Shown: positions 6,653 through 61,660 of the stretch, in pieces
Layout: every line of letters starts with the position of its first letter
Numbering within the stretch: the first letter of the stretch is position 1
Program-made: the position numbers and the translations under genes
The notes under the pieces: generated by a model
The model's database searches: none
The model's input: only the letters and a program-made list of their open reading frames with translations
What the model was told of the DNA's origin: nothing
From: Rhodobacter sp. NTK016B
Lineage (GTDB): Bacteria > Pseudomonadota > Alphaproteobacteria > Rhodobacterales > Rhodobacteraceae
Assembly: GCF_017303295.1 (NCBI RefSeq)
Contig: NZ_JAFKOK010000014.1
Span: forward strand, 1-64,000
DNA length: 64,000 nt
Reading direction: 5' to 3'

Positions 6653-6661
6653 AGGGTCCGC

Positions 6662-6973
6662 TTATGCTTTGCCGCGCAAGTTCCCGCGCGAGACACGATC
6701 TTTCATCAAGTGCGACGGCCGGAAGGACAGCACGCGGCGCGGGCTGATCGGCACCTCTTCTCCGGTCTTCGGATTGCGGCCCAGTCGCTCGGCTTTCGAG
6801 CGCACGCTGAACGTGCCGAAGGACGAAATCTTGACCTGTTCGCCCTCGACCAGCGCGTCCGACATGTACTGGATCACCGATTCCACGAGCGCCGCAGATT
6901 CGTTGCGCGACAGACCGACTTCGCGAAACACCGCCTCGCTCAGATCCATCCGTGTCAGAGTCTTTCCGCTCAT
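6662..6973 (-). CDS. ihfA: Integration host factor alpha subunit
   Basis: A 103-residue HU/IHF-fold protein. It begins [21 protein letters not shown]; the DNA-bending arm is [25 protein letters not shown], with the intercalating proline in KTGEEVPI, and [12 protein letters not shown] is the core strand pair. The Asn-Pro-Lys-Thr-Gly block and overall length fit IhfA better than HU or IhfB. With IhfB it bends DNA at specific sites and assists transcription and replication. It lies downstream of fabH and upstream of the MerR gene on the same strand. Confidence 0.95.
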
Positions 6974-7088
6974 CCCGATCTCCCCGGCGATTGACAGGCT
7001 TTTATCGGAAAATGAGCCAAGAAAATTATCCTGTCAACAGCGGGGTTTGCGACGCGTTGTTTGCACTGCGTGATAAGCGGGGGCCTGC

Positions 7089-8075: not shown

Positions 8076-9205
8076 TCGTGCTCTCCGCTTGGGGGCGCAT
8101 CCTGAGCCGTCTTGGCGGCAATCACAAGCCGTTCCGCCATCCGGCCCTGATAGCCCGATTGCGCCAGCTTGGCGGCCAGCCCGATAGCGGCGGCGACCCC
8201 GGTCGCATCGGCCGAGCCGTGCGATTTGACGACGGTCCCGTTGAGACCAAGGAACACGCCGCCATTGACGCGGCGCGGATCGATTCGCGTGCTCAGGCGC
8301 CGCAAAGCGCCCCGAGCGAGAAGGGCGGCCAGCATCGCCAGCGGCCCCGAGGAAAGGGATTCGCGCAGCAGGCCCGAGACCAGCTTGGCCGTGCCTTCGC
8401 CGGTTTTCAGCGCGACATTGCCGGTAAAGCCGTCGGTGACGATGACGTCCACGCGTTCGGACGGAATGTCGGATCCTTCGACAAAGCCCACATATTCGTA
8501 GCGCCCGGTTTCTTCGTGCTTCGCGATCAGCTCGTGGGCGGCCTTGATCTCGGCGCGGCCCTTATGCTCTTCGGTCCCGACATTGAGCAGCCCGACACGC
8601 GGTCGCGGCTCGCCGAATCCGTTGCGGAAATAGGTCACGCCCATGATCGCATAGGCCAGCAGATCCTCGGCCTCGGCCTTCACGTCGGCGCCGACATCGA
8701 GCATCGTGTTGAAGCCGTGATGGCCGCGCGCGGGCCAGAGGCAGGCGATGGCAGGGCGGTTCACACCCTCCATCCGCCGAAGCTGAAGCATCGACACGGC
8801 CATCAGCGCGCCGGTATTGCCGCAGCTGACCGCCGCGTGCCCATGCCCGTCCTTGAGCGCGGCGATGGTGGACCACATCGAGGTGTCCTTGCCATGGCGC
8901 ATGATGTGGCTGGGCTTGTCGTTCATGGTCACAGCCCGGTCGGCATGAACCAATGACAGACGGCCCGCAAGCGTAGGCTCGCGGGCGATCAGCGGCTCAA
9001 GCGCCGCGCTGTCTCCGTGCAGGAGAATATCGATGGCGGGATCGTCTTTCAGCGACTGGACACAGCCAGCAACCACGACCGAGGGGCCGCGATCGCCACC
9101 CATGGCGTCTACGGATATCACGATCCGTCCGGTCGTACCCCGCTCAACCGGCTGGGTGTCAACCGGCTGACCGGCGTGCGGATGGTCCTGATCGGATTGC
9201 ATCAT
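8072..9205 (-). CDS. plsX: Phosphate acyltransferase PlsX
   Basis: A 377-residue protein. The PlsX family block IVISVDAMGGDRGP (residues 28-41) is followed by HGKDTSMW, AVSCGNTGALMAVSM, TMLDVGADV, GLLNVGTEEHKG, VIVTDGFTGNVALKTGEGTA and GLNGTVVKSHGSAD. It converts acyl-ACP to acyl-phosphate for glycerolipid synthesis at the membrane. About 25 residues precede the core, and an alternative Met at residue 2 is available. It is part of the rpmF-plsX-fabH operon order conserved in many bacteria, linking ribosome and lipid synthesis. Confidence 0.97.
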   Translation of the reverse strand: MMQSDQDHPHAGQPVDTQPVERGTTGRIVISVDAMGGDRGPSVVVAGCVQSLKDDPAIDILLHGDSAALEPLIAREPTLAGRLSLVHADRAVTMNDKPSHIMRHGKDTSMWSTIAALKDGHGHAAVSCGNTGALMAVSMLQLRRMEGVNRPAIACLWPARGHHGFNTMLDVGADVKAEAEDLLAYAIMGVTYFRNGFGEPRPRVGLLNVGTEEHKGRAEIKAAHELIAKHEETGRYEYVGFVEGSDIPSERVDVIVTDGFTGNVALKTGEGTAKLVSGLLRESLSSGPLAMLAALLARGALRRLSTRIDPRRVNGGVFLGLNGTVVKSHGSADATGVAAAIGLAAKLAQSGYQGRMAERLVIAAKTAQDAPPSGEHE

Positions 9206-9225
9206 TGCCCCGCCGGTCGAAACCG

Positions 9226-9429
9226 TCAGGCCGCGTCGTCTTCCAGGTCGACTTCGGCCTGCACGACGACTTCACGGTTGTCGTAATGGCCGCAGGACGG
9301 GCACACGTGGTGCGGGCGCTTCAGCTCACCGCAGCTGGTGCATTCGTTCGGGTTGCCCGCGACGAGCGCGTCGTGCGAACGACGCATGTTACGACGGGAA
9401 CGGGTCACGCGGTTCTGTTGAACGGCCAT
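9226..9429 (-). CDS. rpmF: 50S ribosomal protein L32
   Basis: A 67-residue protein starting [22 protein letters not shown], with [18 protein letters not shown] giving the two C-x-x-C pairs of a zinc-binding L32. It ends with an acidic tail (EVDLEDDAA). It is 20 bases upstream of plsX on the same strand and 206 bases downstream of the DUF177 gene, the usual bacterial neighbourhood. Confidence 0.97.
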
Positions 9430-9635
9430 GTTAACCTCTGCTCTTATTCAGGGGACCGACCGGGCGGCCCGTGTCTGTGGAAACTTGCTGCGACGGGGCA
9501 TTACACCGCCAAGGCAGGCAATGAAAGACCTAACGTGCATGAGGCGCGGAACATAGAAGGTTTTTCGCGCCTTGCAAGGGGACTTCCGGAGCTTTCAGCG
9601 CCTGTTTTGCAAGGTTTTCGGCGTCTGGACGCCGC

Positions 9636-10199
9636 TCAACCCTGATCGGTGTCCTTTTTCAGCGCCGCGAGGGCGGCGAAGGGATTCGGGCGCTCGTCCT
9701 CGCCCAGATCGTCGGTGGCCGAGTCGGGCAGTTCAGCGCCGTCGATGCGCGGATAATCGGGCAAAGCGAGCGCCAGCGCTTCGGCCATCACCACGCCGGG
9801 GTCGATCACCGGGCCCAGCGGCTCGCGGGTGTCATCCTCGGGGATCTCGGTCTCGGTCTCGCTGGGCTCGTCCATGTCGCGCACGAAGATTCGGGTGACG
9901 GGGGTGTCAATGCGGGTCGAGACCGGCTCGGCGGTGATCACGCATTCCTGCACGACAGTCGCGCCAAGCATCCCGTCAAGACGCCAGTCATGTTTGCCCT
10001 CGGCCACGACCGTGCCGCGGAAATCGAGCTTGCGGATTTTCTGCGCGCCCAGCGACTGGGCCAGATCCGCGCGTGCCTCGGCATTGGGCGCAAGGTGGAA
10101 CCGCGTCACCGTCTTGGGCGACAGGTCGCGCAGGCGCAGCGTCAGTTTCAGGCTGTCGCTTTCGCGCAGCGGGCCGGAGGGGCTGGATTGCTCGCTCAT
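9636..10199 (-). CDS. DUF177/YceD family protein
   Basis: A 187-residue protein. The core has DLAQSLGAQKIRKLDFRG, DWRLDGMLGATVVQECVITAEP, then FVRDMDEPSETETEIPEDD and MAEALALALPDYPRIDGAEL, matching the DUF177 pattern with a single Cys and an acidic middle. YceD-type proteins lie next to rpmF across bacteria and are implicated in 23S rRNA metabolism; that role is family knowledge. The gene is upstream of rpmF on the minus strand and divergent from bamE. Confidence 0.88.
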   Translation of the reverse strand: MSEQSSPSGPLRESDSLKLTLRLRDLSPKTVTRFHLAPNAEARADLAQSLGAQKIRKLDFRGTVVAEGKHDWRLDGMLGATVVQECVITAEPVSTRIDTPVTRIFVRDMDEPSETETEIPEDDTREPLGPVIDPGVVMAEALALALPDYPRIDGAELPDSATDDLGEDERPNPFAALAALKKDTDQG

Positions 10200-10431
10200 C
10201 TGGGGCCTCCTGTAGTATGCATGCGCACCCTATGCCTGTGTTTTGTCGCTTTGGAAATGGCAAGGCGGCGCGCTGGCGGGCGCACATTCCCGCGAGGGCG
10301 GGCCACAAGCGATCCTCGGGCCGGTTCCTTTCTTGAACACTGCGCTGGGTTTTAGTAACCCCAGAGGCGCTGTCAGCTCCGGTGCGGACAGCGCTGAACA
10401 CGGACACCGGACAGAACGCACGGAGACGGGC

Positions 10432-10929
10432 ATGACGGATCGCGCGACGCAGAGCAGGCTGGCTTCGGGCAAGAAACGTGTCGGCGCGGGTATTGCCCGC
10501 CGCCTGATCGCTCCGCTTCTGGGGGCCGCTTTGCTGGTGGGCGCCTGTTCGCCGATCATGACCTATCACGGCTACGCCCCCACCGACGACCTGCTGGCCC
10601 AGATCGAAGTCGGGCGCGACAATCGCGAAACCGTGGCCGAAACCATCGGACGCCCCGGCATGGGCGGCGTGATGGAGGGCTCGGGCTGGTTCTATGTACA
10701 ATCCGACTGGCGTCAGCGCGGCTGGCGCGCCCGCGAAGAGGTCGACCGTCAGGTCGTCGCCATCAGCTTCGACGCCAATGACCGGGTTTCGAATATCGAA
10801 CGTTTCGGCCTACAGGATGGCGAAGTCATCGCCCTGTCGCGCCGCGTGACCGATGCCGGCCCGCGTCCGAGCATCGTCTCGCAGGTTCTGGCGGTGCTGG
10901 GCAACTTCACGGCTGGGTCGTTCCAGTAA
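10432..10929 (+). CDS. bamE: Outer membrane protein assembly factor BamE
   Basis: A 165-residue lipoprotein. ATG 10432 follows GGAGACGGGC. Residues 1-38 form a lipoprotein signal with the lipobox VGAC and acylated Cys39. The SmpA/OmlA domain follows (DDLLAQIEVGRDNRETVAET, GRPGMGGVMEGSGWFYV, VAISFDANDRVSNIERF). BamE is a periplasm-facing lipoprotein stabilising the BamA complex, which inserts beta-barrel proteins in the outer membrane. It is divergent from the DUF177 gene (232-base gap). Confidence 0.9.
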   Translation: MTDRATQSRLASGKKRVGAGIARRLIAPLLGAALLVGACSPIMTYHGYAPTDDLLAQIEVGRDNRETVAETIGRPGMGGVMEGSGWFYVQSDWRQRGWRAREEVDRQVVAISFDANDRVSNIERFGLQDGEVIALSRRVTDAGPRPSIVSQVLAVLGNFTAGSFQ

Positions 10930-11005
10930 TCCGAAGGGTCACTCCCTTTATCTTTGTCGGGCTTTGTCTTTGTCAGGCCCCGCGTGGCAGGGGGTCGCGC
11001 GGCGT

Positions 11006-11034
11006 CTGACAAATGTCATGAAACGGTGATACAT
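11006..11034 (+). promoter_or_regulatory. Putative promoter of the OlsB-like gene, with a dyad over the -35
   Basis: CTGACA (11006-11011), a 17-base spacer and ATACAT (11029-11034) form a plausible sigma-70-type promoter. The -35 overlaps the short dyad TGACAAATGTCA (11007-11018), which could be an operator. Inference from sequence only. Confidence 0.4.
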
Positions 11035-11062
11035 TGGGACCGCACAACTTGCCGGAGCCCCT

Positions 11063-11860
11063 TTGAGACACGCCAGTTTTCCTGACCCTGTCCTGACGCC
11101 CGATCCTTTCGGCCCGCCGGTCCACACCGGCGGGCGGATGGTGCGGCTGGCCGGTCCGTCGGACATGGCGGCTGTGCTGGCCTTGCGCGGGCGGGCGTTT
11201 CGCGGCGGCGCCGAAGACAGCGATGCCTATGACCGCGATTGCCTGCATCTGTGGGTCGGGGCCGATACGCGCGGCGCGCCGCCTCTGGCTACGCTGCGAA
11301 TCCTGCGCCATCCCGATGCTAGTGCGCTGCTTTCGGGCTATGTCGCGCAGCATTACGACCTGCGCGCGCTGGCGCAGGCGGGCGAGGCCTCGGGCGCCGA
11401 GACGCTGGAACTGGGGCGGCTTTGTATCGAGCCGGCGATCGGGGCAGGGGGCGGCGATCTGTTGCGGCTGCTCTGGGCTGGCGTGACCCGCGTGGCCTTC
11501 GGGGTCGGCGCGGCGCGGCTGGTGGGCTGCACGTCGTTTCACAGCACCGACGCGGCATCCCTCGATCCCGCATGGTCCTATCTGAAAGCCCGCGCGTCCG
11601 GACCCGACGGGCTGACACCCGGCCGCAAAGCGCCCGAGATCTATCCGTTCGACGCCCTTCCGCCGCAGCCCAGCCCCGAGGGGCAATCAAAGGTACCGCC
11701 GCTTTTGCGGGCCTATCTGTCGATGGGCGGCTGGGTATCCGATCACGCCGTGATCGACCGGGATCTGGGCACCTGCCACGTCTTCACCTGCGTGGATATC
11801 GCCGCGATGCCGCCCGCACGGCTGCGAATCCTGCGCCAGACGGCAGGAATGACGCCGTAA
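11063..11860 (+). CDS. OlsB-like N-acyltransferase (ornithine or glutamine aminolipid type)
   Basis: A 265-residue GNAT-fold protein with a TTG start (GGAG 8 bases upstream). It shares with the second OlsB-like gene in this window (29184-29990) the blocks LELGRLCIEP (against VELGRSCVHP), an LSMGGWVSDHAVIDRDLGT region (against LRLGGFVGQGAFIDRDFNT) and a terminal segment with a hydrophobic strand. Such proteins transfer a 3-hydroxyacyl group from ACP to the alpha-amino group of an amino acid, making lyso-aminolipids. Because the other copy sits with olsA, this stand-alone copy may be a glutamine-specific (GlsB-like) enzyme, known as an OlsB homologue in marine Rhodobacteraceae. That assignment is inference. 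Confidence 0.75.
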   Translation: MRHASFPDPVLTPDPFGPPVHTGGRMVRLAGPSDMAAVLALRGRAFRGGAEDSDAYDRDCLHLWVGADTRGAPPLATLRILRHPDASALLSGYVAQHYDLRALAQAGEASGAETLELGRLCIEPAIGAGGGDLLRLLWAGVTRVAFGVGAARLVGCTSFHSTDAASLDPAWSYLKARASGPDGLTPGRKAPEIYPFDALPPQPSPEGQSKVPPLLRAYLSMGGWVSDHAVIDRDLGTCHVFTCVDIAAMPPARLRILRQTAGMTP

Positions 11861-12027
11861 GCGCAGGTTCGCGCGTCACGCCTCTTGCGCCGCGCTGCGG
11901 GCTGCGGTATTGCGCGCGCACTTCACAGGCGGGGTCGGGCCCTGCGGGGAGACATCCCGCAACGGTCCACCGGTTGGGTTTTGACCCATAAGCCCCGTCC
12001 AAGGCGTAAACCGGAAAGGACACGGAC

Positions 12028-12795
12028 ATGGCGCTTCCCGAATTCTCCATGCGTCAGCTCTTGGAAGCTGGCGTTCACTACGGACACCAGACCCAGCGCT
12101 GGAACCCGCGCATGGGCCCGTATATCTACGGCGACCGTAACGGCATTCACATCATCGACCTGACGCAGACCGTCCCGATGCTGGATCAGGCGCTGAGCGT
12201 CATCCGCGAGACCGTCGCCAAGGGTGGCCGCGTTCTGTTCGTCGGCACCAAGCGTCAGGCCTCGCGCCAGGTCGCGGAAGCCGCTGAAAAATGCGCTCAG
12301 TACTACATGAACCACCGTTGGCTCGGCGGCACGCTGACCAACTGGAAAACCGTGTCGCAGTCGATCCAGCGCCTGAAGCAGATCGACGAAGTCATGGAGC
12401 GCGGCGCCGCCGGCCTGACCAAGAAAGAGCGTTTGGGCATGGAGCGCGAGCAGACGAAACTGCAAGCCTCGCTCGGCGGGATCCGCGAAATGGGCGGTCT
12501 GCCGGACCTGCTGTTCGTGATCGACGTCAACAAGGAAGACCTGGCCATCCTGGAAGCCCGGAAGCTGGGCATTCCGGTCGTCGCCGTGGTCGATACCAAC
12601 TGCTCGCCCGAAGGCGTGGACTACATCATCCCCGGCAACGATGACGCCTCGCGCGCCATCGCGCTGTATTGCGACCTCGTGGCCCGCGCCGCGCTCGACG
12701 GCATGTCGGCGCAGCTGGGCGCCGCCGGTGTGGACCTTGGCGAGCTGGAAGAAGCTCCTGCCGAGGAAACCGTGTCGGAAAACGCCGACGCCTGA
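12028..12795 (+). CDS. rpsB: 30S ribosomal protein S2
   Basis: A 255-residue protein with the full S2 pattern: [20 protein letters not shown] at the N-terminus, [39 protein letters not shown], and [20 protein letters not shown]-type blocks. An acidic C-terminal tail follows. The start has AAAGGACACGGAC upstream. It is the first gene of the rpsB-tsf pair. Confidence 0.98.
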
Positions 12796-12890
12796 TCGTT
12801 ACGCGGCTGCCCTAACAGGGTGCCGCTGAGACAGGCGTGACATCGGGCAGGGGCAACCCTGCCCGCATCCCCAATTCAAGGAGAGAGATC

Positions 12891-13799
12891 ATGGCGATTA
12901 CTGCTGCGATGGTTAAAGAACTGCGCGAGATGTCGGGCGCGGGCATGATGGACGCCAAGAAGGCGCTCGTCGAAAACGACGGCAACATGGATGCCGCCAT
13001 CGACTGGCTGCGCACCAAGGGTCTGGCCAAGGCCGCGAAGAAATCGGACCGCGTGGCGGCCGAGGGTCTTGTCGGCGTCGCCGTCGACGGTGGCCGTGGC
13101 GTGGCGATCGAGATCAACTCGGAAACCGACTTCGTCGCCAAGAACGAAGACTTCCAGAACCTCGTGCGTGACGTGGCCAAGGTTGCCCTGCAGACCGGCG
13201 AGTCGGTCGAAGTGGTCAAAGCCGCCGATCTGAACGGCGAGACCGTCGAGAACGTCATCAACGGTGCTATCGCGCGCATCGGCGAAAACATGACCTTCCG
13301 CCGCATGCACCTGCTCGAAGGCGATACCGTCGTGACCTATGTGCACAACGCCGCCGCCGAAGGCATGGGCAAGATCGGCGTGCTGGTCGCGCTGAACGGT
13401 CCGGCCGACAAAGCGCAGGAAATCGGCAAGCAATTCGCCATGCACATCGCCGCCACCGCGCCGATGTCGCTGTCGGAAGCAACGATGGACAAGGAAGTTG
13501 TCGAGCGCGAGCTGCAGGTGCAGACCGCCAAGGCGCTGGAAGAAAACGCCACCGCGACCAAGCCGAAGCCCGAACAGGTGATCCACAACAACATCATCCC
13601 GGGCCGCATGAAGAAGTTCCTCGCCGAGAACACGCTTCTGGGCCAGTCCTTCGTGATCAACCCCGATCTGACCGTCGAGCAGGCGGCCAAGGAAGCGGGT
13701 GTCGAGATCACCGGTTTCGCGCGCGTCGCCGTGGGCGAAGGCGTCGAGAAGAAAGAAGAGGATTTCGCGGCCGAGGTTGCGAAAACGCTCGCCGGCTAA
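12891..13799 (+). CDS. tsf: Translation elongation factor Ts
   Basis: A 302-residue protein. ATG 12891 is preceded by AAGGAGAGAGATC. The N-terminal UBA-like domain is [20 protein letters not shown], and the signature [12 protein letters not shown] follows. The C-terminal part has [20 protein letters not shown], typical of proteobacterial EF-Ts. It recycles EF-Tu from GDP to GTP. It lies 95 bases after rpsB and ends in a strong terminator. Confidence 0.98.
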
Positions 13800-13821
13800 G
13801 CCCGGATTTCACGATTTTCGG

Positions 13822-13853
13822 AAAGGGCGGTCCTTCGGGGCCGCCCTTTTTTT
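13822..13853 (+). terminator. Rho-independent terminator after rpsB-tsf
   Basis: AAAGGGCGG (13822-13830) pairs with CCGCCCTTT (from 13841) around a TCCTTCGGGG apical region that can itself form CC-TTCG-GG; the 3' arm runs into seven T (13847-13853). Confidence 0.93.
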
Positions 13854-13943
13854 CATGCCGTCAGTCACGCGGGTTTCTGCGCTGGACTGCCTGAGCGCGC
13901 AGGGCGCCGCTTCAATCTATGCGGTAGCTTGGGCATCTGTTAC

Positions 13944-14070
13944 TTCCGAACAATTGCGTCGGGTTTGGCGTAAACGCTTGAATTCTTTGTTTCCGCACCG
14001 CACATTCAGGCCATAACTTCCCAAGATTGTAACATTTTTGAACCATGTTTCACCGCATACTTGTTCGGAA
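13944..14070. promoter_or_regulatory. Long-range inverted repeat upstream of the LuxR gene
   Basis: TTCCGAACAA (13944-13953) and TTGTTCGGAA (14061-14070) are exact reverse complements 107 bases apart. They flank an A+T-rich stretch that is the likely promoter region of the luxR-type gene starting at 14122. They could be paired operator half-sites. The rest of the 322-base gap holds only the tsf terminator and no gene that I can support. Confidence 0.4.
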
Positions 14071-14121
14071 CGCCCCGACTCGCCCGCGCGTGATGTGCGG
14101 TCGCCGCGCTAATGGGATCGC

Positions 14122-14997
14122 ATGATGCTTGAACAGACGTCTTTCACATGGTCTGACATGTCTCCGGTCGCCACGAAGCCCTTGCAGACCCTCACTGTAG
14201 AGGGGCTGTCCGCCCGATTGGCGCAGATGCTGGCAAGTCGGGATCAGGCGGTGATCTGGAAGCTTGCCTGCGACTTCTTCCGCAGCCTGGGTTTCGAGCA
14301 GGTACTGTATGGCTACTCGCCCGATTCGCGCGGTCAGAAGCTCGGCGCGCCCGAGGATTTTCTGATCCTGTCCACGATGCCCAAGGCAGTCATCACCGAA
14401 CTGGTCGAGCAGGGCTATTTCCGCATGAGCTGCACGTTTCACTGGGCGCTCGAAAACACCGGCATCGCGTCGTGGTCAATGAGCTACGAAGAAGCCGGGC
14501 TTGCCGATCAGATGGATATCCGGCCCGAAGGGCTGGATTTCTTCGCACGGCACGATCTGGTCAATGGCTGCTGTATCGGCTTCCCGAAAGAGCGGACGCG
14601 GGGCAGGGGTGTCATGGCGCTCATTGCCCCTGCGGTTGTGTCCCAGGAAGAGGTCGACCGCCTGCTGGCCGACCTGCATGACGTGATCTTCTCGGTTGCG
14701 TCCGTGGCGCATAAGAGCTTGTCGATTCTGCCCTATCACGAAAGCGGTCGGCGGCTGTCGAAGCGTCAGCGCGAAGTGCTGGAATGGGTGGCCGACGGCA
14801 AGACCTCGGCGGATATCGCGATGATCATGGGAATCACCGTCTCGACGGTAGAGAAACACCTGCGACTCGCCCGCGAAACGCTGGGGGTCGAAACGACCGC
14901 GCACGCGATCAGCAAGGCCGCTTACCTCAATCAGGTCTTCGTCGCGAGCCCGGCTGAGCATGGAACGATGACTACAATCTCTGCATGGGACGCCTGA
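14122..14997 (+). CDS. LuxR-type transcriptional regulator (solo)
   Basis: A 291-residue protein. The central part (about residues 45-200) looks like an autoinducer-binding domain with the aromatic pattern YGYSPDSR, FHWALENTGIASWSMSYEEAG and GCCIGFP. Residues 212-272 are the LuxR helix-turn-helix: LSKRQREVLEWVADGKTSAD, IAMIMGITVSTVEKHLRLAR, ETLGVETTAHAI. Typical LuxR proteins are 230-250 residues, so an inner start such as the Met at 14158 is possible. No luxI-type synthase is present in the window, so it is a solo receptor or responds to a distant or foreign signal. Confidence 0.88.
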   Translation: MMLEQTSFTWSDMSPVATKPLQTLTVEGLSARLAQMLASRDQAVIWKLACDFFRSLGFEQVLYGYSPDSRGQKLGAPEDFLILSTMPKAVITELVEQGYFRMSCTFHWALENTGIASWSMSYEEAGLADQMDIRPEGLDFFARHDLVNGCCIGFPKERTRGRGVMALIAPAVVSQEEVDRLLADLHDVIFSVASVAHKSLSILPYHESGRRLSKRQREVLEWVADGKTSADIAMIMGITVSTVEKHLRLARETLGVETTAHAISKAAYLNQVFVASPAEHGTMTTISAWDA

Positions 14998-15326
14998 CTC
15001 TCATTTTGCGTCAAAATCGCAAATTGCAACCGGCTCTGTGTGCATCTTGCAAACGAGTTTTTATCTTTGGGTATGGTTTTTCATACTGACATGCTGTGCG
15101 CAATTCCCTTAGTCTAGAGCCAGTAATGAGTAATGATGGAAGTGCCCGCTTCGCCAACCAGATCGGGTGCTTTGTTCCGTCATATGCGTATTCTTGCCGT
15201 GTCCTTTCCCAACCCGATGCAGCAAGACAGTCCGGCGCGACCTCACGGTCGCGCCGGAATGCTTCGTGGCCGCGACCGGAACAACGCGACATCAGGCCAC
15301 CCGGTTCCCCTTTGACAATACCAATG
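14998..15326. other. Convergent gap between the LuxR gene and rpe; no supported gene
   Basis: The first 130 bases are A+T-rich, with a small dyad GTATG-GTTTTT-CATAC (15071-15086). Further on is a perfect 12-bp hairpin TCCGGCGCGACC / GGTCGCGCCGGA (15231-15242, 15247-15258) without a T run. Short reading frames here have no ribosome-binding site and no family resemblance. It may hold an untranslated transcript or simply the ends of two convergent units. Confidence 0.5.
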
Positions 15327-15356
15327 AAAACGGCCCCGTCGCGCAGGACAGGGCCG
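15327..15356 (-). terminator. Rho-independent terminator after rpe
   Basis: Read on the minus strand, CGGCCCTGTC and GACGGGGCCG (15331-15356, one mismatch) form a stem around a short GC-rich loop, followed by UUUU (plus-strand AAAA, 15327-15330). It lies 42 bases past the rpe stop codon. Confidence 0.75.
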
Positions 15357-15397
15357 GGCTGAAGGTCTGCAAAATGCAACCGAAGGCTGAGCGCCTG

Positions 15398-16108
15398 TCA
15401 GGCCATGCGAGCGCCCGACGCGCGATCCACGGCGTCCCGGATCGCCCGCATGTTGGCGCCGTAGGGTTCGGGGTTCTCCACCGAGCCGCCCTTGAACACC
15501 GCCGACCCCGCGACCAGCACATCCGCGCCGGCCGCCACGACCTTGGGCGCGGTCTCGGGCGTGACGCCGCCGTCGATCTCGATATGGATGGGCCGGTCGC
15601 CGATCATGCTGCGCAGGGCACGGATCTTGGCGCTCATATCGATGAATTTCTGCCCGCCGAAACCGGGATTCACCGTCATCACGCAGATCAGGTCCGTCAG
15701 GTCGAGCACATGCGCCACCGCCTCGGCCGGGGTGCCGGGGTTGAGCGCCACGCCCGCCTTTTTCCCCGTTGCACGAATGGCTTGCAGGGTGCGGTGAATG
15801 TGCGGTCCGGCCTCGACATGGGCGGTGATGATATCGGCCCCGGCCTCGGCGAAGGCCTCGATATAGGGATCGACGGGGGCGATCATCAGATGCACGTCCA
15901 TCACCGTCTTCACATGCTTGCGGAAGGCAGCGACGGCGGGCGGGCCGAAGGTCAGGTTGGGGACGAAATGGCCATCCATCACGTCGACATGGACCCAATC
16001 GGCGCCCTGCGCTTCGATGGCCTGGATCTCGCGGCCGAAATCGGCGAAATCGGCGGAAAGGATCGAGGGCGCGATCTTGATCGGCGACGGGAAACTCATG
16101 ACAGGCAT
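15398..16108 (-). CDS. rpe: Ribulose-phosphate 3-epimerase
   Basis: A 236-residue TIM-barrel enzyme. Signatures are [16 protein letters not shown] (residues 10-25), [19 protein letters not shown] (metal ligands His and Asp), [32 protein letters not shown] and [10 protein letters not shown]. It interconverts ribulose-5-phosphate and xylulose-5-phosphate in the pentose phosphate or Calvin pathway. Two in-frame Met codons at the start (MPV-MSF) make the exact start uncertain by three residues. It is divergent from the DUF2339 gene. Confidence 0.97.
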
Positions 16109-16199
16109 AGCTCCGGTATGGCAGGGTCGATGCGTGGTGCCCTAAGCCATCGCCGCGCGCCCGTCCATACCAAACCGCAGGCCCAGCAAGGAGCGCTGC

Positions 16200-18815
16200 A
16201 TGCGCGATGACCTGACCATCCTTTTCGTCCTTCTTCTGGGATTGGCGCTGGCGCTGGCCTTTCGCCGGCTGCGCGCGCTCGAAAGCCGTGTGCGGTCGCT
16301 CGAAGCCCAGGCGCGCAGGACGCCAGCGGCAACAGACGAGCGGGAGCAGGGCGGCCCGCTGCTAACACCCGCCGCGGCATCGCGATGGCCGCTTGCCCGA
16401 TCCGACGACGAGGTGCGGCCCGAGGAAAGCGGCCCGCCCGCAAGGCCATCGACGCCCGCGCTGCCGGTCTTGAGGCAGGCGATGCGCCGCGCCATGGACT
16501 GGCTGCGTGCCAACTGGATCTATCCGGTGGCGGGCACCGCGCTGATCATGGCGGCGATCTATCTGGTGCAATATTCCATCGAAAAGGGCCTGTTGTCGCC
16601 CGCGGCGCGCATCGCTCTGGCGGTCGTGCTGGGGACCGCGCTGATCGCCGGGGCCGAGGCGCTGCGCCGTCGCTGGGGCGATGGCGAGACCGGCGCCCGG
16701 CTGGTCCCCGCGACGCTCGCAGGGGCAGGCGTGGTCGCGCTGTTCGCCGCCGTTCTGGCCGCGTTTCATCTTTACGCGATGCTGGGCCAGATCGGCGCCT
16801 TTGCCGCGCTGGCCGCCATCGCCGCCTTTGCCATGGCGCTGGGATGGGTCCACGGGCCGCTTCTGGCCGCGATCGGCGTGATCGGCGGCTGCGCTGCGCC
16901 ATTTCTGCTGGGCGGCGGATCCGCGCCCGGCGCGCCGATCTTCGGCTATTTCCTGATCCTGTCGCTGTTGGGGCAGGGGATCGACGGCTATCGGCGCTGG
17001 GGCTGGGTGTCGATCCTTGCCGTGCTTCTGCCGCTGGGCGGAGGCTGGCTGATGGCGCAGGCCGGCGGACCCGGATGGGCGCTGGCTGCGATGGCGCTTG
17101 GCATCGCGGTGCTTGCCCTGGCGCTGCCGGGCGGGACACTCATCCCGCAGGCTGAGGGCCCGATGCCGCATCGCTGGCGACAGGCGCGGCCGTCGCTGGC
17201 CGTGTTGGCCGGGACTTTGGCGGTGCTGGGCGCCTTGCTGGCGATCCTGAGCGCCGTCCGCTCGCCCGAAAGCCTCATGGCGATCGGGATCTTCGCGGTG
17301 ATCCTGCCGATCTGGACCCGCCGCGCGCCGGCCTTCGCAAGCCTCGCTCTGCCGGTGGCCGCCGCAATCCCGGTGGCTGTCGGCGTAAGCCTGATGACCA
17401 CGCCGCTGTTCTTGTCTTTCGTGCTGAATGCCAAGACATGGAGCGTTGTGACAACGCTGACGCTGTCTGTACTGGCCGGGGCCGCGATGCTCTGGCGCAG
17501 CGAGGACAATCCCGCACAGCGCAGCTACTGGGGAATTCTTGCCATCGTCACGCCCGGCGCGACCGCGATCGCAATCGAGCTGTTCTGGCGCCCGCTGACG
17601 CTGTTGCCATTGCTATGGCCCTTTGCGGTGATGGCGCATGCCGGGGCCGCGAGCGCCGTCGCCATTTGGGCGGCGCGGCGCGATCAGGGGCAGGGCGCGC
17701 GTCTGGGCGCGGCGCTTGTCGGGACCTATACGATGATCGCGCTGGCGATGACGCTGCTGATCTCGGAAGCGGCGCTGTCGATGGCGCTGGCAGTGCTGCT
17801 GGTCAGCGCGGGCGCGATGGATCGCCGCTTCAACCTTCCCGCGCTGGGTTGGGTCATGGGACTGGGTGCCCTGGCTTTGGGCTGGCGGCTGATGCTGGTG
17901 CCGGGGCTTGGTCCGCTGCTCGACGGCGAGGTGTCTACGCTCGATGTCTGGCTGACCTTTGTCGCGGTGCTGGCGGGGCCGTTGGCGGCGCTTGCGCTGA
18001 TCCGCAGCCTGACACCGCATCCCGCGCGTGACTGGGGGCGTGTGGTTGCGGAGACGACGCTGAGTGCAAGCGTTCCGGTGGTTCTGATGGTGATCTTCGG
18101 ACGGTTTCTCGACGGCATCTCGGCCCATGCCGGGCTGGGCATCGAGGCCAGCGTGCTGATCGCGATGGCCTGGGTTCAGGCAGAGCGCGCCGAGCGGCTG
18201 TCATCCAGCCGAGCGATGCTGTTGGTGCGACGCATCCTGTGCTGGGGGCTGGGCATCGCGGCGGCATTCTGCCTGTGGGTCGGCGCGGTAATCCTGTCGC
18301 CGGTTGTCGGCTTTGGCAGTTCGGTTTCGGGCTGGCCGATCCTGAACGATCTGGCGCTGGCCTACGGCGCGCCCGCGCTTCTGCTGTGGTGGACGTTTCG
18401 CAAGCAGGGCGGAAAACGGGGCCTGCTGGGCCGCCTGACGGCGCTGGCGCTGCTTGGGATATGGATTGCCACGGTGATCCGGCATCTGTGGCATGGCAGC
18501 GCCGGGATGACGCTGGACGCGGGCTTCCTGCAGGGCGAGCTCTACGCCTATACGCTGGCACTTCTGGCGGCGGGCGCGGTGGCCATGGCGGTTGCGCTGC
18601 GGACCGGACGACACATGATCCGCGTGGCGGGGCTGGCGCTGATCGGCGTCGCGGCTGCCAAGGCGTTTCTGATCGACGCCTCGGGATTGTCGGGCCTGAT
18701 GCGCGTGGGGGCGTTCCTTGGGCTCGGACTGTCGCTGGTCGCGCTGGCATGGTTGAACGCGTGGGTCACGGCGCGGATGCCGAAGCGGGAACCTAAGATA
18801 GCGCAACCGGATTAA
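16200..18815 (+). CDS. DUF2339 family giant membrane protein
   Basis: An 871-residue protein with AAGGAGCGCTGC before the start. One hydrophobic helix (residues 4-20) leads into a short coiled region (LRALESRVRSLEAQARR), a linker, and then from about residue 100 more than twenty closely spaced hydrophobic helices rich in Ala, Leu and Gly. WIYPVAGTALIMAAIYLVQY and WVHGPLLAAIGVIGGCAAPF are typical of DUF2339 proteins. Function is unknown; no enzymatic motif is visible. The gene is transcribed alone. Confidence 0.85.
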   Translation: MRDDLTILFVLLLGLALALAFRRLRALESRVRSLEAQARRTPAATDEREQGGPLLTPAAASRWPLARSDDEVRPEESGPPARPSTPALPVLRQAMRRAMDWLRANWIYPVAGTALIMAAIYLVQYSIEKGLLSPAARIALAVVLGTALIAGAEALRRRWGDGETGARLVPATLAGAGVVALFAAVLAAFHLYAMLGQIGAFAALAAIAAFAMALGWVHGPLLAAIGVIGGCAAPFLLGGGSAPGAPIFGYFLILSLLGQGIDGYRRWGWVSILAVLLPLGGGWLMAQAGGPGWALAAMALGIAVLALALPGGTLIPQAEGPMPHRWRQARPSLAVLAGTLAVLGALLAILSAVRSPESLMAIGIFAVILPIWTRRAPAFASLALPVAAAIPVAVGVSLMTTPLFLSFVLNAKTWSVVTTLTLSVLAGAAMLWRSEDNPAQRSYWGILAIVTPGATAIAIELFWRPLTLLPLLWPFAVMAHAGAASAVAIWAARRDQGQGARLGAALVGTYTMIALAMTLLISEAALSMALAVLLVSAGAMDRRFNLPALGWVMGLGALALGWRLMLVPGLGPLLDGEVSTLDVWLTFVAVLAGPLAALALIRSLTPHPARDWGRVVAETTLSASVPVVLMVIFGRFLDGISAHAGLGIEASVLIAMAWVQAERAERLSSSRAMLLVRRILCWGLGIAAAFCLWVGAVILSPVVGFGSSVSGWPILNDLALAYGAPALLLWWTFRKQGGKRGLLGRLTALALLGIWIATVIRHLWHGSAGMTLDAGFLQGELYAYTLALLAAGAVAMAVALRTGRHMIRVAGLALIGVAAAKAFLIDASGLSGLMRVGAFLGLGLSLVALAWLNAWVTARMPKREPKIAQPD

Positions 18816-46784: not shown

Positions 46785-47834
46785 TTACCGGAACATCGCC
46801 TGCAGATCGACCGTCGTGCGCGTTCCCAGATCATCGCGATGGGCGCGCAGGAACCGGTCAGCGGCGGTGCGTCCGGCGTCGAACAGTTTCTCCAGCAGCG
46901 CTGCGTTCGGCGCCATCTTGGTGCGCGCCGACAATCCCCGCATCGTGTCGTCGTCCGAGATGATATGCACCAGCACATCCTTCATCACGCCATGCTCGAT
47001 CGCGCCCCGCGCCAGAAGCCGCTTGACGAAAGCGATCGCGCGGAGATCCGACAGCAACGCCGCGTTGAAGCTTATCTCGTTGATCCGGTTAAGAATATCC
47101 TGTGACGTCTCGGGCACGACGGGCCGATAGAGCGGGTTCAGCGACACGATGATGATGTCGTCGGGCAGACCCTTGTCGTAGAGGGGGAACAGCGCGGGAT
47201 TGGCGGAGTAGCCGCCATCCCAATAGCTTTCGCCATCGATTTCGACCGCGCGGAAGAAGGTCGGCAGACAGGCCGAGGCCAGAATCGCCTGATGCGTCAC
47301 CTCCGCGCCCCCGAAGACCCGCACCTTGCCGGTATGGGTGTTGGTCGCGGCCACAAACAGCGCGGGTCCCCCCTCGGCGCAGACATTGTCGATATCCAGC
47401 GCCCGCACCGCGGGTTCCAGCGGATTGCCCAGAAACGGCGCCCAGTCATAGGGGCTGAAGACCTGCGCGGCCAGATCCACAGGCGTGAAGGGCATCAGCG
47501 CCTCGCTCATGCTGATCGCCACGTCGAGCGGATAGAAAAACGCCCGCGTCCATTCCGACTGCGCGAAACCGGGCACCAGATCCGACGCCCCCCGTCCGAC
47601 AGTGTCCCATAGCGCCGCCAGCGTCTCGCGCGCGCCCTCGCGACCGCCCGCCGCATAGCCCGCCTTGAAGGCTGCGCCGTTCAGCGCCCCCGCCGATGTT
47701 CCCGAGATCGCCGCGATCTCGAGCCACTCCTCGTCCAGAAGCCGGTCCAGCACCCCCCAGGTCAGCGCACCATGCGCGCCGCCCCCCTGCAGGGCCAGGT
47801 TGATCCGCTTCGTCTCGCGCGCCGTGGCGGCCAT
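46785..47834 (-). CDS. Patatin-like phospholipase
   Basis: A 349-residue protein. The oxyanion glycine cluster is LALQGGGAHGALTWG (residues 13-27), the nucleophile elbow GTSAG is at 45-49, and the catalytic dyad Asp lies in YWDGGYSANPALFPLYD (about residue 205). No signal peptide is seen. Patatin-like proteins hydrolyse phospholipids or neutral lipids. It is downstream of bdhA on the same strand, separated by a long hairpin repeat; bdhA and lipases may both serve storage-lipid turnover, which is inference. Confidence 0.92.
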   Translation of the reverse strand: MAATARETKRINLALQGGGAHGALTWGVLDRLLDEEWLEIAAISGTSAGALNGAAFKAGYAAGGREGARETLAALWDTVGRGASDLVPGFAQSEWTRAFFYPLDVAISMSEALMPFTPVDLAAQVFSPYDWAPFLGNPLEPAVRALDIDNVCAEGGPALFVAATNTHTGKVRVFGGAEVTHQAILASACLPTFFRAVEIDGESYWDGGYSANPALFPLYDKGLPDDIIIVSLNPLYRPVVPETSQDILNRINEISFNAALLSDLRAIAFVKRLLARGAIEHGVMKDVLVHIISDDDTMRGLSARTKMAPNAALLEKLFDAGRTAADRFLRAHRDDLGTRTTVDLQAMFR

Positions 47835-47854
47835 GAGGGCTCCTATCTTTAATC

Positions 47855-47945
47855 CGAAAATATCCCGGGGGGCGGGCCGCAGGCCCGGCGGGGGGCAGCG
47901 CCCCCCGAGGCGGCCAAGAGGGGCTCGATGCCCCTCTTGGCCGCC
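47855..47945. repeat. GC-rich intergenic repeat with a 16-bp perfect stem
   Basis: The element begins AAAATATCCCGGGGGG, has nested dyads (GGGCCGCAGGCCC and GGGGGGCAGCGCCCCCC at 47891-47906), and ends with the perfect stem GGCGGCCAAGAGGGGC / GCCCCTCTTGGCCGCC (47909-47924, 47930-47945; loop TCGAT). The AAATAYYCC-GGGG start and the GGGGGGCAG-GCCCCC core recur at 22090-22190. It lies between bdhA and the patatin gene, possibly acting as a bidirectional terminator. Confidence 0.75.
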
Positions 47946-47951
47946 GCCCCT

Positions 47952-48734
47952 TTACATGGCCGTCCAGCCGCCATCGACGCTGATCGTCGTGCCGGTGATC
48001 TGCTTGGCGGCGTCGGTGCACAGAAACAGCGCGGTGCCGCCGATCTCTTCGGTGGTGGCGAATTCCTTCGAGGGCTGGCGGTCCAGCATGACCTCTCGGA
48101 TCACCGTGTCGCGGTCCATGTCGTGGGTCTTCATCTGGTCGGGGATCTGCGCTTCGACCAGCGGGGTCAGCACATAGCCCGGGCAGATCGCGTTGGCCGT
48201 CACGCCCTTGCCCGCCGCTTCCAGCGCGGTCACCTTGGTAAAGCCCACCACGCCGTGCTTGGCGGCGACATAGGCCCCCTTGAAAGGCGAGGCGCGCAGC
48301 CCGTGGGCCGAGGCCACGTTGATGATCCGGCCCCAGCCCTTGTCATACATGCCCGGCAGCGCGGCGGCGGTAGTATGGAAGGCCGAGGACATGTTGATCG
48401 CGATGATCGCGTTCCATTTCTCTACCGGAAAATCCTCGATCTTCGCGACGTGCTGGATGCCGGCATTGTTGACCAGGATATCGCAGCCGCCCGCTTTCTC
48501 GATCAATGCGCGACATTCGTCCGGCTTCGACATATCGGCCTTGATATAGGTGACCGAAACGCCGTATTGCGCTGCAAGATCGGCCGCCTGTTTATGGTCG
48601 TCTTCGGTGTCGGTGAACGAGTTCAGCACCACGTCGGCCCCGGCAGCGGCGAGCGCCACGGCGACCCCGTGGCCGATGCCCGAGGTCGATCCGGTCACGA
48701 TGGCCCGGCGTCCGCTCAGTGTTTTTTCGGTCAT
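47952..48734 (-). CDS. bdhA: 3-hydroxybutyrate dehydrogenase
   Basis: A 260-residue short-chain dehydrogenase. ATG 48734 follows AGGAGGGTACC. The cofactor motif is AIVTGSTSGIGHGVAVALAA (residues 10-29), with LVNNAGIQHV, IINVASAHGLRASPFKGAYV, the catalytic Y-x-x-x-K (YVAAKHGVVGF) and CPGYVLTPLVEAQIPDQ. The last block and D-x-D spacing are typical of HBDH. It oxidises 3-hydroxybutyrate to acetoacetate with NAD, linked to polyhydroxybutyrate turnover. Confidence 0.95.
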   Translation of the reverse strand: MTEKTLSGRRAIVTGSTSGIGHGVAVALAAAGADVVLNSFTDTEDDHKQAADLAAQYGVSVTYIKADMSKPDECRALIEKAGGCDILVNNAGIQHVAKIEDFPVEKWNAIIAINMSSAFHTTAAALPGMYDKGWGRIINVASAHGLRASPFKGAYVAAKHGVVGFTKVTALEAAGKGVTANAICPGYVLTPLVEAQIPDQMKTHDMDRDTVIREVMLDRQPSKEFATTEEIGGTALFLCTDAAKQITGTTISVDGGWTAM

Positions 48735-48743
48735 GGTACCCTC

Positions 48744-48806
48744 CTGGTAATCCGGCAGCGACAAATGCTGCACCTGCAACATAAAGCGTCGCGGCGTGAT
48801 TACCAG
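48744..48806 (-). promoter_or_regulatory. Operator-like repeats in the bdhA leader
   Basis: CTGGTAATC (48744-48752) and GATTACCAG (48798-48806) are exact inverted repeats flanking the dyad CTGCACCTGCAA (48768-48779). On the minus strand this reads TTGCAGGTGCAG, one base from the TTGCA-N2-TGCAA sites at 629-700. The proximal repeat abuts the Shine-Dalgarno AGGAGG. Control by a shared TGC/GCA-type regulator, or by leader RNA pairing, is possible. Confidence 0.5.
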
Positions 48807-48820
48807 AAAACCGTGAGGCC

Positions 48821-48896
48821 AAAAAAAAACGCCCGCACAAGGCGGGCGTCAGTCGTTGAGGCAGGTTTCATACAGGCAAGAAACCTATCGAGCAGT
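48821..48896 (-). ncRNA. Candidate small RNA, two hairpins and a U9 terminator
   Basis: On the minus strand, about 76 bases from a predicted start near 48896. Stem-loop 1 is AGGTTTC / GAAACCT (48863-48886); a 13-base linker follows; stem-loop 2 is ACGCCCGC / GCGGGCGT (48829-48836, 48842-48849) and is followed by nine U (plus-strand A run 48821-48829). No open reading frame fits. A promoter with CTTGGAA and TATAAG at 17-base spacing is directly upstream. The terminator faces bdhA but no coding gene lies upstream on that strand, so the most economical explanation is an independent sRNA. I match it to no named sRNA. Confidence 0.72.
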
Positions 48897-48902
48897 GAGA
48901 TA

Positions 48903-48932
48903 CTTATAGCGCTTTGTTCAGATCGTTCCAAG
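48903..48932 (-). promoter_or_regulatory. Promoter of the candidate sRNA, heat-shock-like
   Basis: On the minus strand CTTGGAA (48932-48926), 17 bases, CTATAAG (48909-48903). The CTTG -35 core is typical of RpoH-type promoters in Rhodobacter relatives, and also tolerable for the housekeeping sigma factor. Confidence 0.6.
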
Positions 48933-49028
48933 TGTAAAGTTTACAGGCATCTAGCCGGCGCTTTACCCCGACAGGGCGCCCGTGCGAGGGTCGCGTGCGT
49001 GCCCTGCGACGAAAGGAATACCCCGATC

Positions 49029-50864
49029 ATGCCCCTGTTCAGGCCCCTGAAAAGCCCGTTTTTCGCGATTGCGGCACTTATCGCGACGCTTGGCGGCTTG
49101 TCCGGTGCCGGGGCGCAGGACGGCCCTCAACATGGCATCGCTATGTATGGCGAGCCTGCTCTGCCACAAGATTTCGTATCCCTGCCCTATGCGAATCCCG
49201 ATGCGCCGCGCGGCGGCCGATTCGTTTTCGCCGAAGTGGGCAGCTTCGATTCCCTCAATCCGTTCATTTTGCGCGGCTCGGCCCCTTGGGGAGTCAACCT
49301 GTTGACGGTTCAAAGCCTTCTGGGCCGCTCTTACGACGAGCCGTTTACCCTGTACGCGGTTCTGGCCGAGTCCGTGGAAACTGATTCGGCGCGTTCCTTC
49401 GTCGAGTTCACGCTGCGCGAGGACGCGCGGTTCTCTGATGGCAGCCCGGTCACGCTCGAAGATGTGATCTGGTCATTCGAGACGATGGGCGCCGAGGGTC
49501 ATCCCCGCTACCGCAACGCCTGGACAAAGATTGAGTCGATGGAGCGGGTTGGCGCGCGGAGTTTGCGCTTCACCTTCACCGAGCCCGACCGCGAATTGCC
49601 GCTGATTCTGGGTCTGCGTCCCATCGTGCAGCGCGCTCAATTCGACGTGAGTTCCGGCGGTCGGCCTTTCGCCGAAAGCTCGCTCGACCCCGTCATCGGC
49701 TCTGGGCCCTACGTGGTCAGCGGTGTCGATCCCGGGCGTTCGATCACCTTCAGCCGCGTCGAAGACTGGTGGGCCGACGATCTGCCCTTCTATGCCGGTC
49801 AGCACAACGCGCAGGAAATCCGCTACGAATATTACAGCGACCTCGCCGTCGCGTTCGAGGGCTTCAAGGCCGGGCTCATCTCGGTCTGGCGCGAACCCAA
49901 TGCCGCGCGCTGGGAAGACAGCTACGATTTCCCGGCGATGAATGACGGGCGGATGCGGCAGGTCGAGATCCCGCATCAGCGCCCCTCGGGGATGTCGGGG
50001 CTCTGGCTCAACACCCGTCGCGCGCCGTTCGATGACTGGCGCGTACGCGAGGCGCTGCTGCTGGCCTTCGATTTCGACCGTATCAACACGCTGGTCACCG
50101 GCGGCGCCGAGCCGCGCATCGCGTCCTATTTCGGCAATTCGGTGCTGGGCATGCGCCCCGGTCCGGCCGAGGGCCGCGTGGCCGACTTGCTGGCACCCTT
50201 TGCCGATGACCTGCCCCCCGGTGCGCTGTCGGGCGAGGTATTGCCCGAAACCGAAGGGCGCAGCGCCCGGCGCAATCGCCGCACCGCGCTGCGCCTGCTG
50301 GCCGAGGCCGGATGGGAGCCCGATGCGCAGGGCCAGATCCGCAATGCCGAGGGTACGCCGCTCTCATTCGAGATCCTGCTTTTGCAGGGCCAGTCCGAAA
50401 TCCAGTCCAGCGTCAGCGCCTATGTCGAGGATCTGCGCCGACTGGGCATCGCCGCGCGGATGAACGTCATCGACTCAGCGCAATACGTTCAGCGCACGAA
50501 TGCCTATGATTTCGACATGACCCATTCTCTGCGGCTGATGTCGCTGTCGCCGGGAAACGAGCAGTATCTCTACTGGGGCGCCGAGGGCGTCGAGCAGCCG
50601 GGCACGCGCAACCTTGCCGGTGTGCATGACCCGGCGGTCGAGGCGATGATCGCGTCGATGCTGACGGCGGACTCGGACGAGGATTTCACCGCCGCCGTCC
50701 GCGCGCTCGACCGGGTGCTGATGGCCGGACGCTACGCGATCCCGCTCTGGTTCTCGCCCGTCAGCCGGATGGCAATCGACGCAAACTTGCACTTCCCCGA
50801 GACTTTGCCGATATACGGGGACTGGACCGGCTTTCTGCCCGAAACTTGGTGGTATCAGGAATGA
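49029..50864 (+). CDS. YejA-like extracellular solute-binding protein
   Basis: A 611-residue periplasmic protein. ATG 49029 (AAGGAATACCCCGATC before it) opens a Sec signal (residues 1-29, ending AGAQ). The family blocks are ALPQDFVSLPYANPDAPRGG, VGSFDSLNPFILRG, LREDARFSDGSPVTLEDVIW and the long C-terminal SBP_bac_5 lobe. It resembles YejA, the binding protein of a peptide (microcin C) ABC transporter, but no permease or ATPase genes follow; it is an orphan. Its stop overlaps the next gene, an entericidin-like lipoprotein, by ATGA. The frame continues far upstream without stops, but this is chance. Confidence 0.88.
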   Translation: MPLFRPLKSPFFAIAALIATLGGLSGAGAQDGPQHGIAMYGEPALPQDFVSLPYANPDAPRGGRFVFAEVGSFDSLNPFILRGSAPWGVNLLTVQSLLGRSYDEPFTLYAVLAESVETDSARSFVEFTLREDARFSDGSPVTLEDVIWSFETMGAEGHPRYRNAWTKIESMERVGARSLRFTFTEPDRELPLILGLRPIVQRAQFDVSSGGRPFAESSLDPVIGSGPYVVSGVDPGRSITFSRVEDWWADDLPFYAGQHNAQEIRYEYYSDLAVAFEGFKAGLISVWREPNAARWEDSYDFPAMNDGRMRQVEIPHQRPSGMSGLWLNTRRAPFDDWRVREALLLAFDFDRINTLVTGGAEPRIASYFGNSVLGMRPGPAEGRVADLLAPFADDLPPGALSGEVLPETEGRSARRNRRTALRLLAEAGWEPDAQGQIRNAEGTPLSFEILLLQGQSEIQSSVSAYVEDLRRLGIAARMNVIDSAQYVQRTNAYDFDMTHSLRLMSLSPGNEQYLYWGAEGVEQPGTRNLAGVHDPAVEAMIASMLTADSDEDFTAAVRALDRVLMAGRYAIPLWFSPVSRMAIDANLHFPETLPIYGDWTGFLPETWWYQE

Positions 50865-61286: not shown

Positions 61287-61310
61287 TCGCCGTTTCCCGC
61301 AAGCCCCCCT

Positions 61311-61339
61311 TGAGCCGCGCCGCGCCTGGCCCTATATAA
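61311..61339 (+). promoter_or_regulatory. ssrA promoter
   Basis: TTGAGC (61311-61316), 17 bases, TATATA (61334-61339). The predicted start near 61346 leads directly into the acceptor piece of the permuted tmRNA. Confidence 0.7.
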
Positions 61340-61345
61340 GCTCTG

Positions 61346-61660
61346 TTCCCGGCAACGGGGACTATGGACATAAACGCGCTCGTAATACGCGGCTCGGACC
61401 CGGGGGCGGTACCCGGCGGCTCCACCAAACTTCCCTCATTGGGGGCGAATGGGGCCGAAACAGGATCGACGAACGTTTAAAGGGGTTTGCTTTGTCCCGG
61501 TGAGGTACCACCGTTATCGGTCCGAAACGTACAGTTGCCAATGACAACCGTGCTCCGGTGGCCGTCGCTGCGTAAGCAGTTGACCAAAACCGATCTTAAG
61601 CCCTTGCGCTTAGCCGCGTAAGGCGGGGTTCGCAGGTACCTGGCAACAGAAACCTGCACT
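61346..61660 (+). ncRNA. ssrA: Transfer-messenger RNA, two-piece (permuted) type
   Basis: The acceptor piece ends with CGGCTCC-ACCA (61417-61427). The coding piece begins GGGGCCG at 61451, and the two strands form a perfect 7-bp acceptor stem across the removed 23-base spacer (61428-61450). The tag is read from GCC 61537: ANDNRAPVAVAA, stop TAA 61573-61575. GGATCGACGAACG after the 5' end matches the tmRNA D-like region. The 3' border is approximate, placed after the hairpin GCAGGT / ACCTGC (61632-61657). It rescues stalled ribosomes together with SmpB. The T-loop reads GGCGGTA instead of TTCGANN. Confidence 0.94.

Follow-up and report, generated by a model that had tools for sequence, protein, structure and literature searches.

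A Near-Invariant Orphan Small RNA Gene of the Rhodobacteraceae With Predicted Pairing to the dcw Leader and UpsM

Introduction

The window analyzed here, a stretch of 64,000 nt from the genome of Rhodobacter sp. NTK016B (contig NZ_JAFKOK010000014.1, positions 1 to 64,000), contains an intergenic segment at 48932-48821 of the minus strand, which a preliminary description of the sequence had read as a candidate orphan small RNA (sRNA) lying upstream of bdhA. This locus raises the question of whether the segment is a gene in its own right or the leader of the gene that follows it, and, if it is a gene, which RNA its product would act upon.

Results and Discussion

Architecture of the Locus

Read on the minus strand, positions 48932-48821 show the features first described: a promoter-like pair, then a 7-bp hairpin, a linker, and a strong GC-rich terminator with a tail of nine U. 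The -35 element CTTGGAA (48926..48932, minus strand) stands 17 bases from the -10 element TATAAG (48903..48908, minus strand; TATAAA in the family consensus). The predicted transcript of about 72-77 nt occupies 48821..48897 of the minus strand, with its 5' end placed at 48896 ± 1 by promoter spacing and by the point at which conservation starts; the covariance-model match spans 48822-48897. This RNA of ∼76 nt reads CACTGCTCGATAGGTTTCTTGCCTGTATGAAACCTGCCTCAA, followed by a short linker, the GC-rich stem, and nine T. Alignments of family loci delimit a near-invariant 5' core of 42 nt (48856..48897, minus strand), and sequence and folding place hairpin 1, a 7-bp stem (AGGUUUC/GAAACCU) closed by the 10-nt loop UUGCCUGUAU, at 48863..48886 of the same strand. 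The GC-rich stem-loop of the intrinsic terminator (48828..48850, minus strand) overlaps the start of the T9 run at 48829-48821. Two genes flank the unit without belonging to it: downstream, a bdhA-like dehydrogenase gene (47952..48734, minus strand; named by the look of its sequence), and upstream, a divergent gene (49029..50864, plus strand) which we take to encode a peptide-type ABC transporter solute-binding protein.

The predicted fold of the sRNA has an energy of -25.4 kcal/mol (z = -3.85), equaled by none of 200 shuffles, and its terminator, with nine pairs, has the most among five terminator-like sites in 47500-50000, where 2.2 were expected. The promoter pattern, at up to two mismatches, is matched once in the window against 0.20 expected, with at least one match in 19 of 100 shuffles, and a simple sigma-70 scan returned no promoter. 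Taken by itself, this pattern is weak and possibly due to chance, and what settles the reality of the gene is its conservation: a 112-nt query was matched at E ≤ 3e-17 in 21 of 24 genus and family genomes (that of the window included), and the near-invariant block starts where the sRNA is expected to start.

The segment had been described as free of open reading frames, and an ATG within the hairpin indeed opens no conserved frame, as the 174 loci yield 60 different peptide beginnings, the commonest of which (53 loci) runs to seven codons. A micro-peptide translated from this ATG is rejected on the grounds of that variation.

Gene order bears on the alternative that the segment is a leader or attenuator of bdhA rather than an independent sRNA. 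Among loci with the exact 22-nt hairpin and sufficient flank, a bdhA-like homolog lies no more than 700 nt downstream in 125 of 159, which speaks for such a leader, and a solute-binding-protein homolog is the divergent upstream neighbor in 159 of 165. Yet a strong terminator stands before bdhA, the invariant part of the segment is not that terminator, and the sRNA persists in the remaining 34 of the 159 loci, where no bdhA was found within 700 nt. We reject the leader on this last ground and hold it to be exceedingly improbable, in agreement with the original reading. The promoter-like site, the terminator, and the lack of a conserved frame, as found for intergenic trans-acting sRNAs with intrinsic terminators, together with conservation across the family, support a stand-alone orphan sRNA gene with predicted transcription.

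Conservation and Spread

A covariance model built from 21 relatives matches 289 of 295 Rhodobacteraceae genomes (one per genus, two for the genus of the window), and 258 of the 260 that are of good quality. The family genomes that lack a match are G066, G166, G180, G188, G199, and G268; a renewed search of G066, G166, G188, and G268 with the full filter gave nothing convincing. Under the stricter filters of Infernal, a class-wide search matched seven of 289 genomes, five of them Rhodobacteraceae; the other two (G395 and G370) lack the core, leaving no convincing copy outside the family among these class genomes. L201, L202, and L022, which also lie outside the family, matched but were rejected for the same absence of the core. 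The exact hairpin occurs in at least 118 stretches of named genomes; the genera among the matches listed are Rhodobacteraceae (e.g., Paracoccus, Ruegeria, Sulfitobacter, and Roseobacter), along with three Neomegalonema, and the other records among those matches are labeled only by family, order, or as Alphaproteobacteria.

Core positions 2-42 are invariant in the 21 aligned loci. Ten low-scoring family matches were inspected, of which four keep 41-42 identical core bases; the other six show one or more differences. The terminator stem is perfectly paired directly before the T run in 168 of 174 loci and is built from 44 distinct left arms; in the three of the six exceptions that were inspected, stem and T run lie one or two bases apart. 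Conservation of both stems in relatives had been proposed as a check on the preliminary description, and it is borne out in two different ways: hairpin 1 is near-frozen and hardly varies, and the terminator stem is kept through compensatory changes. This pattern indicates that selection acts on the sequence of the 5' RNA and on the shape of the terminator, and a frozen 5' sequence joined to a terminator conserved only in shape characterizes an sRNA that acts by base pairing. The sRNA is probably an ancestral trait of the Rhodobacteraceae.

Complementarity to the dcw Leader and UpsM

Like the gene and its conservation, the complementary site comes directly out of the computation. The bases concerned (48861..48879, minus strand) take in the loop of hairpin 1, its 3' arm, and the first part of the linker. 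In relatives, they complement a conserved island of the 5' leader of the division and cell-wall (dcw) gene cluster, a leader from which the sRNA UpsM also arises, and this complement was found upstream of mraZ already in the first genomes tried. Of 67 dcw leaders, 57 have a perfect complement of at least 10 nt, 43 one of at least 14 nt, and 11 one of 18 nt (median of the longest run, 16). By comparison, the 1340 shuffled-core controls reach at least 10 nt 12 times and at least 9 nt 57 times. With real and shuffled cores scanned equally, the duplex energy beats all 20 shuffles in 52 of the 67 leaders and at least 19 of 20 in 59. These leaders are not a random sample: they come from genome sets that include five of the window's genus and ten chosen for low scores, and from 48 of 97 genomes with mraZ, taken highest scores first. 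G050, G122, G021, and G052 are not represented, their leaders being too short or lacking the motif.

The predicted site has the consensus CAGGTTTCATACAGGC. In 55 leaders anchored on ATACAGG (100% by construction), the eight preceding bases are 78-98% conserved, falling to 33-69% further upstream; downstream, C at +7 reaches 98%, positions +8 to +10 67-82%, and +15 84%, with all other later bases at 65% or less. The island is therefore not quite isolated, as conservation continues at +8 to +10 and at +15.

Covariation with the target is barely testable because the sRNA hardly varies. In lineage G135, both sRNA and site have changed, and its own pair has -31.7 kcal/mol, compared with -29.7 kcal/mol for the common sRNA. 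In G062, which has a diverged sRNA, there is no net compensation (own -14.4, common -19.3 at the homologous site).

The site is weak in the window species itself, where UUGCCUGUA (48879-48871) and CUGCCU (48864-48859 region) pair over 9 + 6 nt. Among its close relatives, G008 and G015 likewise pair through UUGCCUGUA and CUGCCU only, and G017 through a 9-nt run only; in these three and the window species (G000), the longest run is 9 nt and duplex energies are no better than those of shuffles. As the dcw site appears to have decayed in the window species and the sRNA is still constant, other targets must presumably hold the sRNA there.

A second stretch of possible pairing, site 2 (CGAGCAG), is found in 54 of the 67 leaders compared with 4.5% of shuffled leaders. 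With GTG taken as the mraZ start of Rhodobacter sphaeroides, the main site corresponds to nt 54-71 of UpsM and lies within the R1 domain, and site 2 begins at nt 106. The CGAGCAG motif may be part of the R2 hairpin, and its occurrence is only suggestive of pairing. The sRNA 5' part ACUGCUCG (48896-48889) is kept where the leader lacks CGAGCAG (G041, G087, G116, G134, and G155), and should thus have another partner or role.

Proposed Mechanism

The excerpts of the R. sphaeroides literature consulted here describe UpsM as starting 268 nt before mraZ, with a length of 206 nt and a processing product of 130 nt, and describe the processing of UpsM and the dcw 5' leader as RNase E- and Hfq-dependent (PMC5089854). 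From these lengths (206 - 130), we deduce an RNase E cut near nt 76.

We consider it reasonably probable that the locus encodes a trans-acting, self-terminated sRNA that pairs with the dcw leader and UpsM, likely promotes the RNase E cut, and tunes dcw mRNA. Here, UpsM would be the RNA made when transcription stops inside the long dcw 5' leader. The hairpin loop UUGCCUGUAU would start pairing with CAGGTTTCATACAGGC in the dcw leader and UpsM, after which the 3' stem arm and the CUGCC linker would zip up on the leader site. Pairing at nt 54-71 would open R1 from inside and place the end of the duplex a few nucleotides upstream of the cut near nt 76, and a duplex ending a few nucleotides before the cut is a layout known for sRNA-guided RNase E cleavage. 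The most likely outcome would be that RNase E cuts UpsM and the dcw leader more often, whereby cell division and dcw mRNA would be tuned to the growth state. In this scheme we infer the role of Hfq, the effect on RNase E, and the sign and timing of the regulation, as well as the 5' end of the sRNA.

The relationship could also run in the opposite direction, with UpsM as the regulator and the abundant leader RNA serving as a sponge that titrates the sRNA away from other targets. UpsM is reported, in the portions of the literature consulted, to be the most abundant R. sphaeroides sRNA, at about 60% of Hfq-bound sRNA, which would suit a sponge; so would the frozen state of the sRNA, which suggests many targets and is retained in species with a decayed dcw site. 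The dcw mRNA leader bears the same site, however, and an effect in cis would be hard to avoid. We regard the sponge as unlikely, and prefer the reading in which the sRNA acts upon the leader.

Relationship to StsR

An sRNA that acts on UpsM is already known: StsR (RSs0827), described in the excerpts consulted as a 72-nt orphan sRNA of R. sphaeroides whose pairing partners are UpsM and the dcw 5' leader (PMC8307010, PMC11354728, and PMC8625941). Identity with StsR was first suspected because of this action, and would leave only the spread of the RNA as new. Both RNAs would pair with UpsM (here judged by complementarity only), and under the RpoH spacing rule the present sRNA likewise measures 72 nt in R. 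sphaeroides, counted to the fourth U. The two are also alike in being orphans, and appear to differ in locus and sequence.

RSs numbers seem to follow gene order, so that RSs0827 should sit near 853 kb in the R. sphaeroides-like genome G084. The anchors for this interpolation in G084 are CcsR (RSs0680a-d) at 691.7-692.4 kb, presumably correctly named from its repeats, the UpsM region (RSs0682) at about 694.6 kb, and SorY (RSs1543) at 1632.6 kb; CcsR adjoins UpsM at 2-3 kb. The present sRNA lies at 1444.0 kb, away from the expected RSs0827 locus, and is set apart by this gene-order interpolation. A terminator scan of 0.5 Mb of G084 (680-960, 1360-1496, 1620-1640, and 2590-2650 kb) gave 26 entries, two of them duplicates from overlaps. 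Only two entries have a promoter-like match, namely the present sRNA and a gene at 858.1 kb. The longest perfect runs to UpsM among the 26 are also theirs, with 12 nt for the present sRNA, a point in favor of its identity with StsR, and 11 nt for the 858.1-kb gene. In crude duplex energy, the latter ranks 5th and the former 21st, so that duplex energy alone says little.

The 858.1-kb gene fits StsR and is our StsR candidate (L253:18064-18139, corresponding to G084 C4 at about 858.1 kb; G000:C85:122368-122460 in the genome of the window). It has a TTG...CCCATGTTA promoter and measures 72 nt to the third U. Its two complements, of 11 and 12 nt, lie at the 5' end of UpsM and close to the start of mraZ, respectively, whereas that of the present sRNA lies at nt 54-71; the StsR-like pairing of the present sRNA, seen as complementarity only, is thus at another site. 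By pairing with the 5' end of UpsM, the candidate would disrupt the R1 stem and expose the 3' strand of that stem, where the cut falls. This opening of R1 fits the published description of StsR, in the excerpts consulted. Counting weak ones, the candidate has matches at E ≤ 0.01 in 125 of 150 family genomes, and its -10 is of the CCCATGTTA type; with mostly 74-89% identity among the matches listed, it is less conserved than the present sRNA.

We therefore reject identity with StsR, given a locus at 1444 kb as opposed to the interpolated position of about 853 kb, and consider it quite improbable. StsR is most likely a different gene, a strong inference that would make the present sRNA the second to act on the dcw leader. 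On a broader view, to which we give an even chance, the dcw cluster would answer to two family-wide sRNAs that share one leader domain: StsR, bound to the outer stem and close to the start of mraZ, and the present sRNA, bound to the inner strand beside the RNase E cut. The two would act as an RNA switch with two inputs, linking division to growth and stress, of which the second input had not been described.

Some further observations concern the candidate and G084. The UUCACUGUCCC region of the candidate has a run of at least 9 nt within 70 nt of the mraZ motif in 16 of the 67 leaders, and its mraZ-side complement is often GGGACAGTG, in which GTG is a possible start codon. StsR is also described, in the excerpts consulted, as pairing with rpoE mRNA just after the start codon; the G084 sequence searched gave no close rpoE or chrR match. 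G084 otherwise looks like R. sphaeroides 2.4.1; either its assignment is off or the stretch with these genes lies outside the sequence searched.

Comparison With Known RNAs and Novelty

No family in Rfam 15 reaches its gathering score for this sRNA. RF02631 (Hrs13), with a gathering score of 52, was rejected at 25.8 bits and with several stem pairs broken, and RF02651 (SorY), with one of 111, at 15.8; what these and other weak Rfam matches share with the sRNA is a U-tailed terminator and a short hairpin. Elsewhere in the window, 61306-61660 of the plus strand is a full-length match to the alphaproteobacterial permuted tmRNA, far over the gathering score. UpsM and the dcw 5' leader are partner RNAs on the target side, and we claim no homology between them and the sRNA gene. 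By description rather than sequence, as far as the excerpted account goes, the sRNA can be likened to EcpR1, an alphaproteobacterial stress sRNA that modulates the cell cycle in Sinorhizobium meliloti, a member of another order than the host of the window.

Within searches on StsR and UpsM, on sRNAs acting on mraZ, and on sRNA surveys of the family, mostly in the open literature, we found no published description of this RNA or of its dcw site. Papers containing words of the sRNA sequence were, among the matches listed, unrelated by title, and those on Ruegeria and Paracoccus sRNAs give no coordinates or neighbors that would place this RNA. RNA-seq tables may well include this RNA already: in the part of the literature consulted, R. 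sphaeroides is credited with 79 known or predicted sRNAs, and P. denitrificans has abundant conserved sRNAs of 80-84 nt. Among the latter, 'intergenic 60' (80 nt, 120,000-175,052 reads) or 'intergenic 134' (84 nt, 5,830-17,250 reads) may be this RNA. What appears to be new here is the predicted target in the dcw leader, named neither in the preliminary description nor in the literature found; the degree of conservation is unusual. With matches in 289 of 295 genomes, nearly all of different genera, a nearly frozen 42-nt core, and no Rfam entry, the sRNA is an excellent candidate for the role of a core regulator. The predicted site makes an RNA link between division and growth phase testable in the Rhodobacteraceae, and also bears on why UpsM is so abundant.

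Promoter and Possible RpoH Control

In 172 of 174 loci, a TTG is found 33-35 nt upstream of the core, and the family promoter consensus is CAAACTTTTAGCTTGGA, a spacer of 16-17 nt, and TATAAA (CTTGGA-N16/17-TATAAA). The RpoHI and RpoHII promoters of R. sphaeroides are characterized, in the excerpted text consulted, by TTG, C-37, C-14, T-13, and A-12 (Dufour et al., 2012; PMC3441632). All of these are carried by the promoter in the window, and the heat-shock-like control suggested at the outset is possible; since the family consensus would also serve a housekeeping sigma factor, the assignment to RpoH stays at that level.

Directly before the -35 element, the window has AAACTTT (48936..48942, minus strand), part of a family-conserved block with the consensus CAAACTTTTAGC, in which each base of CAAACTTTT is present in 137-165 of 173 aligned loci. 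This block is A/T-rich and about as conserved across the family as the promoter, and it looks like a regulator site or an UP-like element.
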